A stretch of DNA of 64,000 nucleotides, taken from positions 682,001-746,000 of the forward strand of contig NZ_JACHFZ010000001.1 in NCBI RefSeq assembly GCF_014202075.1, read 5' to 3'. The stretch is from Brevundimonas basaltis. Its GTDB lineage: Bacteria > Pseudomonadota > Alphaproteobacteria > Caulobacterales > Caulobacteraceae. Position numbers and translations under genes: made by a program. The notes beneath the pieces were generated by a model. That model did not search any database. It was given only the letters and a program-made list of their open reading frames with translations, and had not been told where the DNA came from. Shown one piece after another: positions 28,301-59,057 of this stretch (positions are counted from its first letter, which is position 1; the number at the start of each line of letters is the position of its first letter).

Positions 28301-28334
28301 GCCCGCTTGGAATGCCGCCCCGGAGCGCCTATAT

Positions 28335-28660
28335 TGGGGATGTCCGGGTTCGCCCGGACTATGGCGATAAACGCGCTTGTAATAAGCGGACCGGACCCGG
28401 GTGCGATTCCCGGCGGCTCCACCATTTCCTCCCGTGTATCGGCGGGCGGTGCGGGGCCGACTAGCATCGACGGACGTGTAAAGAAGACTGCTTTCGCCCG
28501 TCCTGGCCCACCGTATCGGGCCTTTATCTAACTGCGAACGATAACTTCGCTGGAGAAGTCCGCCTCGCCGCGTAATGCGGTTCGGTTGATTTCGAACACT
28601 TAAGTCCTGGGGGATCAGTTCCCCAGGCGGGGCCGCCTGGGGGCCTGCCAACAGAACCCC
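28335..28660 (+). ncRNA. ssrA: Permuted two-piece tmRNA
   Basis: The acceptor piece comes first: a hairpin GTCCGGG-TTC-GCCCGGAC (about 28341-28359), TATGGCGATAAACGCG, and the tRNA-like 3' end CGATTCCCGGCGGCTCCACCA, ending at 28424. The coding piece starts at GGGGCCGA (28453), whose first seven bases pair with the CGGCTCC of the acceptor arm, including the G3-U70 pair that specifies alanine. The tag frame, resume codon GCG at 28534 to TAA at 28573-28575, encodes ANDNFAGEVRLAA; with the charged alanine the tag is AANDNFAGEVRLAA. The tagged, stalled proteins are handed to ClpXP via SspB, whose gene is next. Outer ends are approximate. Confidence 0.95.
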
Positions 28661-28747
28661 TGGCACTTTCCCGACTCTTTACCGTCTCCGCGTCTTTCGC
28701 CCGCGCCGCTGCGCGTCTAAACCCTCGACTGCAACGCCGAGGACCCG

Positions 28748-56566: not shown

Positions 56567-56959
56567 ATGACGAGACAGAATATCGGCGAGGCCCTGGCGG
56601 CCCGTCTCTACACCGCCGAAGCGGCCATAGACCGGGCGATGGCGGAAGCCGCCGCCCTCGCCGCCGCGCTTCCGACCGCGCGCACCGAGGCTTGGCTGTC
56701 GGCGGTCACGGGCCAGCGCGCCTTCACCGGCGCGGCGGCCGCGATCAGCGCCCTGGCCGAGGCGCGCGGCCATCTGGTCCAGACCCACAACACCCTCGCG
56801 GCGCTGGCGCGGAAGCTGGGGCTTGAGGCTCTGGCGGTCGGTCCGGTCGACAAACCGGGCGACACGCCGCCGGTCGGTGGCGGGGGCGTATGTCCGGAAG
56901 GCGACACCGGTCGTCGCGTGGTAAACAAATCCCTACCGGATACTGCCGAGCTATGTTAA
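56567..56959 (+). CDS. Small helical protein, paralogue A
   Basis: A 130-residue soluble protein that is nearly all Ala-rich amphipathic helix: LYTAEAAIDRAMAEAAALAA, AAISALAEARGHLVQTHNTL. The C-terminal 40 residues are Gly/Pro-rich and disordered. It has no motif I know. It aligns along about 70 residues with the next protein (see 56993), so the two are tandem paralogues. ATG at 56567 has GGGAGGAAG seven bases upstream. Confidence 0.7.
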   Translation: MTRQNIGEALAARLYTAEAAIDRAMAEAAALAAALPTARTEAWLSAVTGQRAFTGAAAAISALAEARGHLVQTHNTLAALARKLGLEALAVGPVDKPGDTPPVGGGGVCPEGDTGRRVVNKSLPDTAELC

Positions 56960-56992: not shown

Positions 56993-57334
56993 ATGGATAA
57001 GGCTCAAGTTATCGCCAGCGTCGCCGGCGATCTGAATGCGACGGAGCAATCCGTTGACGAGGCCATCACCCGCGCCACGACCCTTGTTCAGTCGATGATC
57101 GGGGGCCGTGCGGCCATGAACGTGTCGCCCGTCGTCGGCGCCGAGGCTCAGGCCAAGGCGATGGAAGCGATCGCCGCCCTCGCCGCCGCGCGCCAAGCCA
57201 TGGTCGCTTGCCACGAGGAACTGGCAAAGGATCATCGGCGCATGGGCTACGGTGTGTATGCCCAGGGTCTGGACAAGCTGCCCGAGGGTGAGAAGCCCAA
57301 GACCATCGGCGAACACCGACTGCGCGCAGTTTAA
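56993..57334 (+). CDS. Small helical protein, paralogue B
   Basis: A 113-residue soluble protein. The core LNATEQSVDEAITRATTLVQ, EAIAALAAARQAMVACHEEL aligns with paralogue A (TAEAAIDRAMAEAAALAAAL; ISALAEARGHLVQTHNTLA). It ends in a basic tail. ATG at 56993 has GGAGG seven bases upstream, which decides it against the ATG at 56981. It is followed by two hairpins before a membrane protein gene. Family unknown; Caulobacterales have several such small proteins. Confidence 0.75.
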   Translation: MDKAQVIASVAGDLNATEQSVDEAITRATTLVQSMIGGRAAMNVSPVVGAEAQAKAMEAIAALAAARQAMVACHEELAKDHRRMGYGVYAQGLDKLPEGEKPKTIGEHRLRAV

Positions 57335-57345
57335 TTCTAGGTAAT

Positions 57346-57418
57346 GTCAGCGAGCGGTCATTCCCGCCCGCGCTGACTTCAGGCAGTATCGCCCTCATGC
57401 CTATGGCGTGGGGGCGAT
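57346..57418 (+). promoter_or_regulatory. Two consecutive hairpins, the second masking a ribosome site
   Basis: Hairpin 1: GTCAGCG (57346-57352) pairs with CGCTGAC (57371-57377). Hairpin 2: 57388-57401 pairs with 57405-57418 in a continuous 14-bp stem (two G-U pairs) with a 3-nt loop, TAT. It covers the GGGGG Shine-Dalgarno bases and ends three bases before the GTG start at 57422. This could be an attenuator or a translational switch; neither has the T-run of a terminator. Confidence 0.6.
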
Positions 57419-57421
57419 TCC

Positions 57422-57877
57422 GTGTTTGAGACCATCTACTCCCAACTAGTCCTTGCAGCCGCGATTATCGTCGTCGCATTTGTGTTCTGGAAGGGCGACG
57501 AGCCGGAGCGAATGGGCGGCGCGGCGTACGCGATGGTCTTCCTGGCCACAACCATGATCACCGACAGCGGCAGCCATAGCGTTCCTCGATGGGGCGTGAT
57601 GGGTATCGAGATCATACTCTTGATCGTCTTCATCGGTATCGCTTGGAATAGTCGGCGTGCCTGGCCCGTTTGGGCCGCCAGTTTCCAAGCATTGGTTGTC
57701 ACCTCCCACGCTTTGATCGCGGCCAACCTCCGCCCTCCTCACAACGCAGTGGCCGCGGTTATAAACATGTCCAATTACGGCTTGCTGATCGCGCTCGCCG
57801 TCGGAACTTTCTGGGCTTGGCAGGAGCGGCGGGCTGCCTCAATGGGATTCGACAACGCCCGGCCGCCACGCCTGTAG
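57422..57877 (+). CDS. Four-helix membrane protein, paralogue A
   Basis: A 151-residue inner-membrane protein with four helices: YSQLVLAAAIIVVAFVFW, GVMGIEIILLIVFIGIAW, SFQALVVTSHALIAANL, and MSNYGLLIALAVGTFWAW. The conserved loop KGDEPERMGGAAYA follows helix 1 and SRRAWPVWAASFQ precedes helix 3. It is a tandem copy of the following gene. The GTG start sits just beyond a hairpin that masks the ribosome site. I do not recognise a function. Confidence 0.72.
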   Translation: MFETIYSQLVLAAAIIVVAFVFWKGDEPERMGGAAYAMVFLATTMITDSGSHSVPRWGVMGIEIILLIVFIGIAWNSRRAWPVWAASFQALVVTSHALIAANLRPPHNAVAAVINMSNYGLLIALAVGTFWAWQERRAASMGFDNARPPRL

Positions 57878-57903
57878 AGGCGCGGCCCCTGCGGAGGTTC
57901 CAC

Positions 57904-58332
57904 GTGTTCGACACCCTCTACTCCCAGATCGGCGCGGCGGTCGGCGTGGTCGTGGTGACCTTCGCCTTCCTCAAGGGCGATGAGCCGGAGCGGGTCGGAG
58001 CGGGAATCTACGCCCTCGGTTCGCTCGCGGCCCTGCTGGTTCAGAACGACATCCAGTTGTACGGCCCGCAATGGGGGCTTCTGATCGTTGAGCTGGTGGT
58101 GCTGGCGGCCTACGCCGGCGTGGCGTGGAAAAGCCGCCGGTCGTGGCCGATCTGGGCCGGCGCGCTGCAATCGGTGATCGTCGTGAGCCTTGTCCTGCCC
58201 GCCATCGATGTCCGCCCCCCGATCGCGGCCTTCTACGCCGTCGGCAATGCGGCCAGCTACGGCATTCTGCTCGTCCTCGCCCTCGGCGTTCTCCAGGCCT
58301 GGCGGGACCGCCGGGCGCTGGGGTTTGAGTAG
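57904..58332 (+). CDS. Four-helix membrane protein, paralogue B
   Basis: A 142-residue protein with the same plan as its neighbour: FDTLYSQIGAAVGVVVVTFA, FLKGDEPERVGAGIYALG, WGLLIVELVVLAAYAGVAWK, SRRSWPIWAGALQSVIVV, YGILLVLALGVLQAWRDRR. The shared KGDEPER and SRR-W-P-W-A motifs show a duplication. It starts with GTG at 57904 behind GGAGG, an accessible ribosome site, unlike paralogue A. It is probably co-transcribed with it. Confidence 0.75.
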   Translation: MFDTLYSQIGAAVGVVVVTFAFLKGDEPERVGAGIYALGSLAALLVQNDIQLYGPQWGLLIVELVVLAAYAGVAWKSRRSWPIWAGALQSVIVVSLVLPAIDVRPPIAAFYAVGNAASYGILLVLALGVLQAWRDRRALGFE

Positions 58333-58421: not shown

Positions 58422-59057
58422 ATGCCCCTGTCCCATGCCCAGTTGTGGAAGGCGATCGACGGACTGGCGCGGCGCGAGGGGATCAGCGTCTCGGCGCTGG
58501 CGCGGCGCGCGGGGCTGGACGCAACCAGCTTCAATCCGTCGAAACGGTTCGGGCCGGGGGATCCGCCTCGCCCGCGCTGGCCGTCGACCGAAAGCCTGAC
58601 GCAGGTGCTTCGCGCCACCGGCCTGTCGCTGGGCGAGTTCGCGGATCTGGCCCGGGATGCACCCGAGCGGCCGTCGACTGTTCCGATGCTGGGCATGGCC
58701 CAGGCGGGTCAGGACGGGTTCTTCGACGACGCCGGCCTGCCCGTCGGCGACGGCTGGGACCAGACGGAGCTGCCGCGCCCGACCGAGACGCTGCTCAGCC
58801 TGCGCGTCACCGGCGATTCCATGGCCCCGGTTTATCGCGAGGGGGACCGGATCATCGTCGACCGCGAGGCTTCGGACGTGCGCAAGGGCGACCGGGTGGT
58901 GGTGCGCACAACGGGCGGAGAGACGCTCGCCAAGGAGGTCGCGGCGCTGACCGTCCAAACGGTAACCCTGGCCTCCATCAATCCGGCCTTTGAGCCGCGC
59001 CTCGTGCCGCGCAAGGACATCGTCTGGATGGGCCGCATCCTCTGGGTCAGTCAGTAG
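58422..59057 (+). CDS. XRE/S24 (LexA-like) regulator
   Basis: A 211-residue repressor of the CI/LexA type. The N-terminal helix-turn-helix (ISVSALARRAGLDATSFNPS) is followed by the S24 self-cleaving peptidase domain: VTGDSMAPVYREGDRIIVD with the nucleophile Ser and GGETLAKEVAAL with the Lys. LexA-type proteins cut themselves when RecA filaments form. The gene is not phage-borne and its regulon is unknown; it may control stress or metabolic genes. ATG at 58422 is preferred because it begins the HTH domain. Confidence 0.88.
   Translation: MPLSHAQLWKAIDGLARREGISVSALARRAGLDATSFNPSKRFGPGDPPRPRWPSTESLTQVLRATGLSLGEFADLARDAPERPSTVPMLGMAQAGQDGFFDDAGLPVGDGWDQTELPRPTETLLSLRVTGDSMAPVYREGDRIIVDREASDVRKGDRVVVRTTGGETLAKEVAALTVQTVTLASINPAFEPRLVPRKDIVWMGRILWVSQ

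Follow-up and report, generated by a model that had tools for sequence, protein, structure and literature searches.

A leader hairpin between two Brevundimonas genes as a candidate mask against read-through translation

Introduction

The question raised by this locus is why a membrane protein gene carries a stem over its own ribosome site, whereas the second copy of the gene, located directly downstream, does not. The window, i.e., the whole stretch of 64,000 nt analysed here, belongs to the 2.65 Mb genome of Brevundimonas basaltis, and all positions refer to it. From the letters alone, the original prediction had described a 14-bp stem covering the Shine-Dalgarno bases of the first of two tandem four-helix membrane genes and had suggested a thermometer, a ligand switch or an attenuation device.

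Results and Discussion

Genes of the locus and position of the hairpin

Table 1. Positions of genes, hairpins and promoter-like elements in the window.
Feature	Position	Strand	Remarks
up1, 113 aa	56993..57334	+	no known family
TAATGT, second conserved TAANNT-type element	57342..57347	+	
Upstream dyad/hairpin H1	57346..57377	+	57346-57352 / 57371-57377, inner 57354-57357 / 57364-57367
TTCCCG, -35-like hexamer	57361..57366	+	genus consensus TTYCGG; 17-nt spacer to CAGTAT
GACTT in promoter spacer	57375..57379	+	GANTC (CcrM methylation site) here in other lineages
CAGTAT, -10-like hexamer touching 5' arm	57384..57389	+	
Main hairpin H2	57388..57418	+	14-bp stem 57388-57401 / 57405-57418, loop 57402-57404; masks gene 1 Shine-Dalgarno
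Putative start of gene 1's own promoter, inside 5' arm	57396..57397	+	placed from -10 position
GGGGG, Shine-Dalgarno candidate within H2 3' arm	57410..57414	+	7 nt before GTG 57422
Gene 1, 151-aa membrane protein	57422..57877	+	GTG start
Gene 2, tandem second copy	57904..58332	+	no hairpin; open GGAGG 57893-57897

The proteins of gene 1 and gene 2 are 44% identical, and the gene 2 start, corrected from the first reading, is GTG 57904. According to the computed energies, freeing the ribosome site requires 22.1 kcal/mol for gene 1 versus 8.9 kcal/mol for gene 2, which upholds the predicted open site at the second copy. Instead of four helices, the predicted fold of the gene 1 protein contains five helical segments (residues 2-24, 27-47, 57-76, 81-100, and 107-146). 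Neither a Pfam or NCBIfam match above cut-off for this protein family nor a PDB match of the fold at E <= 0.001 was obtained. The protein is present in 127 of 131 Brevundimonas genomes, and up1 adjoins gene 1 in all 119 distinct loci of the genus. As to the neighbourhood, the region 56567-56959 and up1 encode tandem small proteins with 31% identity and no known family. At 58422-59057, an S24/LexA-like regulator with a putative GDSM serine and LAKE lysine is encoded; in 110 of the 119 loci it is located 3' of gene 1.

The uninterrupted stem over the gene 1 Shine-Dalgarno sequence is real. H2 consists of 14 pairs, two of which are G-U, closed by a UAU loop, and its 3' arm covers the GGGGG that represents the sole Shine-Dalgarno candidate in the leader. 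The 106-nt leader folds with a minimum free energy of -53.2 kcal/mol (z = -5.25), equalled by none of 200 shuffles, and in the wider minimum free energy structure 57378-57385 additionally pairs with 57423-57430 adjoining the start codon. Existence of H2 and burial of the gene 1 ribosome site are thus confirmed. H1, situated 5' of H2, is weaker and variable and overlaps the -35 region; no weight was given to its count of G-U and A-C pairs, since the finder used favours G-U.

Several further candidates were set aside. The motif is not a repeat element, as its full score (54.2 bits) is reached only once in the own genome and the next match (26.7 bits) is an ordinary terminator. An upstream ORF in the window hairpin (ATG 57397, with a stop overlapping the gene 1 start) was rejected because its ATG is not conserved among relatives, and translational coupling of gene 1 to up1 because the up1 stop lies 87 nt ahead of the gene 1 start. 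A leaderless mRNA was judged unlikely due to the many GTG and TTG starts and the position of the -10-like element far upstream of the start. In open-licence PMC articles, searched for read-through masks and for leader RNAs of Brevundimonas or Caulobacterales, no paper on this element was found.

Conservation within Brevundimonas

A strong stem (score >= 17) whose end lies no more than 9 nt upstream of the start codon was observed for 117 of the 119 distinct gene 1 leaders, which were derived from 148 loci. Among control starts of these loci, the same criterion was passed by none of 21 second copies, by one of 110 S24 genes, and by one of 111 up1 genes. Except for L150 and L221, which contain only four G each and were left out, all leaders could be anchored (117/119), and their Shine-Dalgarno candidates read GGGGG (108 leaders), GAGGG (6), GGGAG (2), and GGAGG (1).

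The first alignment comprised 55 distinct leaders, with duplicates and loci lacking a usable leader excluded. RNAalifold predicted 12 pairs, 10 of which show changes on both sides. For the named structure, 95.7% of cells are paired, and covariation amounts to 0.363 compared to 0.184 in shuffles; none of the five conservation measures was reached by any of 500 shuffles, and slid versions all scored far lower. Covariation in homologues, by which the original prediction had proposed to check the stem, was therefore found, with 10 of the 12 pairs showing compensatory changes and none of the 500 shuffles giving an equal result.

A covariance model matches 119 of 131 genomes of the genus, and among the matches listed most adjoin the gene. 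Nine of the 12 genomes without a match nevertheless contain the gene; eight of these were fetched, and in all eight a diverged hairpin is situated before the start. In other Brevundimonas genomes, side matches of the model at L125, L126, and L131 display the order -10-like hexamer, hairpin, ATG; the respective ORFs are unrelated and have signal-peptide-like starts; the hairpin device may recur.

In the fixed register, 139 G-U pairs were counted versus 11 A-C pairs, and the first 55 leaders gave 69 versus 5. The better test is provided by the upper stem alone (87 versus 10), since the lower 3' arm is also constrained as ribosome site. This excess of G-U over A-C indicates that selection has acted on a gene-strand RNA which holds both arms.

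Promoter-like elements at the 5' arm

At one offset from the 5' arm, 102 of 117 leaders carry a hexamer with A at its second and T at its sixth position, compared to at most 8 leaders at any of 12 other offsets. The commonest forms of this -10-like element in the genus are CATTAT, CATTGT, and CATGAT. In the -35-like element, T occupies the first two positions in 103 and 88 of the 117 leaders, respectively, but the match to TTGAC is poor. According to Zhou et al. (PMC4287350), Caulobacter housekeeping promoters consist of a -35 site (TTG) and a -10 site (A/T). For B. subvibrioides, a statement in PMC7987155 has it that start-site data are lacking. Given the usual distance from the -10-like hexamer, transcription would start around 57396-57397; with the promoter directly before the 5' arm, this start is expected inside the arm.

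On the long leaders, opening of the ribosome site together with the start codon costs a median of 23.3 kcal/mol (n = 117; 24.3 kcal/mol in the window). On a short transcript lacking the 5' arm, the median drops to 9.4 kcal/mol (9.0 kcal/mol in the window), which compares to 8.9 kcal/mol for gene 2 and 9.3 and 9.5 kcal/mol for the S24 and up1 genes of the same loci. The predicted probability of an unpaired site is still low on the short transcript (median 0.28; 0.04 in the window), and this is probably caused by early codons pairing with the G run, so that the gain of the short transcript is one of energy and not a fully open site.

In addition, 40 of 117 leaders harbour GANTC at one position of the spacer between the hexamers; the next commonest position has a count of 7. 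This resembles a class of Caulobacter cell-cycle promoters, reported by Zhou et al. (PMC4287350), in which GANTC is situated between the -35 and -10 sites. Unlike those promoters, the clade of the window carries GACTT, so the window itself lacks the GANTC looked for in its spacer as a mark of a GcrA/CcrM promoter. Two minor observations concern the same region. Counted by locus, the spacer carries GANTC in 44 of the 96 loci with a single copy and in none of the 21 with two copies, while GANTC between stem and start (window 57416-57420) was found in 18 of the 21 loci with two copies and in one of the 96 with a single copy, a shift that probably reflects a single clade-level change. Furthermore, a conserved block TAATTC..GTAANNT (57331-57347) is located at the stop codon of up1 and immediately 5' of H1.

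Occurrence in other genera

A search across the family gave a match in 253 of 299 genomes, Brevundimonas included. Outside the genus, 20 high-scoring loci were sampled. In 17 of these a hairpin (score >= 17) ends 0-9 nt before the start, mostly with quite different sequence; a stricter cut (score 19, end at most 8 nt before the start) is passed by 8 of 20. All 17 hairpin-bearing loci have an up1-like gene upstream and 12 of them the -10-like hexamer. In the remaining three loci, neither a hairpin nor an up1-like gene was found; instead, a co-directional thioesterase-like gene ends 68 nt upstream. As a co-directional upstream gene is retained in these loci, the hairpin tracks up1 and not upstream transcription in general. 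The three loci probably constitute one lineage and would then represent one event.

A read-through barrier and its alternatives

Both the promoter-like elements and the joint loss of hairpin and up1 in one lineage point to a barrier against read-through. Of the explanations considered, we regard the best-supported one, with moderate confidence, to be that the hairpin at the boundary of up1 and gene 1 masks the ribosome site on read-through transcripts. RNA coming from up1 would contain both arms, so that the hairpin would bury the Shine-Dalgarno sequence and no membrane protein would result; where a lineage has a U tract, the hairpin probably also ends many of the transcripts derived from upstream. 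The putative promoter of gene 1 itself (-35-like TTYCGG, 17 nt, -10-like YANNNT) is situated directly 5' of the 5' arm of H2, and a transcript from this promoter would start within that arm, lack the closing strand and be translatable. As a consequence, gene 1 would be read solely from its own promoter and be deaf to upstream transcription. Sequence analysis shows the hairpin with its conservation as RNA, the buried ribosome site, the conserved promoter-like elements with their spacing and the computed difference in energy; that transcription starts within the arm, that read-through RNA exists and that translation differs is inferred. Several points speak against the mask: the -35-like element is weak, the site on the short transcript is predicted to be unpaired with a probability of only 0.04 in the window, some 3' arms outside the genus are devoid of a Shine-Dalgarno sequence (L276, L286, L289, and L290), and the -10-like hexamer occurs in 12 of 17 loci only.

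The main rival, ranked below the mask and considered unlikely, is that H2 chiefly serves up1, as its intrinsic terminator or as a stabiliser of its 3' end, and that the masking is a by-product. It agrees with the hairpin's presence following that of up1, with at least five T within the 8 nt 3' of the stem in 46 of 117 leaders (near-textbook tails in L211, L213, L215, L218, and L219), with the tails TTTTTC and TTTTTTC of L282 and L287 in other genera, and with the side matches of the covariance model, most of which, among those inspected in the own genome and in those of relatives, are ordinary terminators. The tails are nevertheless weak in the window (3 T in 8 nt) and in the two-copy clade (mostly 4), and L276, L286, L289, and L290 have no T tail at all. 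Moreover, a terminator leaves unexplained why the stem directly adjoins the start codon and why the G run is spaced 5-9 nt from it (mode 7, 64/117). Compared to intrinsic terminators of the Caulobacteraceae, the element is alike in its GC-rich, perfect stem behind up1, at times followed by a U tract, but differs in that the stem abuts a start codon and usually holds the Shine-Dalgarno sequence, and in the weak U tract of the window.

Less probable still is a switch in trans, in which a protein (possibly the up1 product), an sRNA or a helicase opens or binds the hairpin on a long leader RNA and thereby controls translation of gene 1. Such a switch would fit the RNA-level conservation of the hairpin and the strict linkage to up1 (119/119 loci in the genus, 17/17 outside). 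However, loop and upper-stem sequence of H2 vary freely among the Brevundimonas leaders and the whole hairpin varies in other genera, so that a conserved binding motif is not apparent; up1 belongs to no recognised RNA-binding family, and the conserved promoter-like elements would be left without explanation.

A ligand riboswitch or a transcription attenuator with mutually exclusive structures, both put forward in the original prediction, appears very improbable, even though the leader holds two hairpins and the second one is terminator-like in some lineages. For neither arm of H2 was a competing partner found upstream in the leader that is clearly better than in shuffled sequence, and the same applies to the 3' arm within the first 60 nt of gene 1; mutually exclusive pairing of an expression platform was thus not observed. 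Likewise, the leader matches no Rfam family above gathering score, H1 is too variable for an aptamer, neither a known nor a conserved aptamer was detected, and only 3 T follow the window stem within 8 nt.

That the dyad acts in the DNA, as operator or cruciform, is highly improbable: a perfect inverted repeat beside a promoter-like element would suit this reading, but it predicts G-U and A-C pairs in equal numbers, which the 139 to 11 ratio contradicts, and symmetry is not kept alike on both strands. The weakest candidate is the thermometer of the original prediction, for which we see practically no chance and which, in its ordinary form, is excluded in silico: a buried ribosome site ahead of a membrane gene is what it would need, but the stem is uninterrupted and GC-rich, the computed energies leave the site closed (unpaired probability 0.0003 at 37 C, 0.0006 at 50 C, and 0.0056 at 80 C), and no opening was seen within the physiological range.

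In sum, the hidden ribosome site before a duplicated gene and the covariation hold up from the original prediction, its thermometer, ligand and attenuation proposals are not supported, and the read-through barrier had not been considered there. Masking of a ribosome site by a hairpin does not in itself make a thermometer or a riboswitch; it is the position of the promoter that decides.

Comparison with known systems

The read-through mask has a counterpart in phage T4. For gene e (lysozyme), PMC3014915 describes an inhibitory structure in the longer early transcripts by which synthesis is lowered 100-fold, whereas transcripts from late promoters lack the 5' portion of this structure. The leader hairpins of T4 e, soc, 49, and I-TevI, as presented there, share with H2 the location of Shine-Dalgarno sequence and/or start codon in an RNA helix. 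One mark of the T4 type is found in silico at our locus: Shine-Dalgarno sequence and start are buried on the long transcript (24.3 kcal/mol in the window). As to a promoter whose start would remove the 5' strand, conserved -10- and -35-like elements are situated at the fitting place and make it a candidate. In contrast to the T4 cases, the hairpin resides on a bacterial chromosome, its putative promoter is of sigma70 and not of phage late type, it occurs genus-wide and in most sampled loci of the family's other genera, and it is terminator-like in some lineages.

By analogy, it is tempting to speculate, though quite tentatively, that the element is a chromosomal, family-wide version of the gene e device, in which a promoter on the 5' arm insulates the membrane gene and which is kept or lost together with up1. 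With a CcrM site in the promoter spacer, as in many Brevundimonas, the protein could appear in one phase of the cell cycle while constant read-through stays silent. A read-through mask at this locus would provide a conserved cellular example of the mechanism known from phage T4, and it would account for the independence of adjacent genes in compact genomes without the need for a separate terminator.

Elsewhere in the window, an alphaproteobacterial tmRNA gene is located at 28303-28667, which is matched by the permuted-tmRNA model as well.
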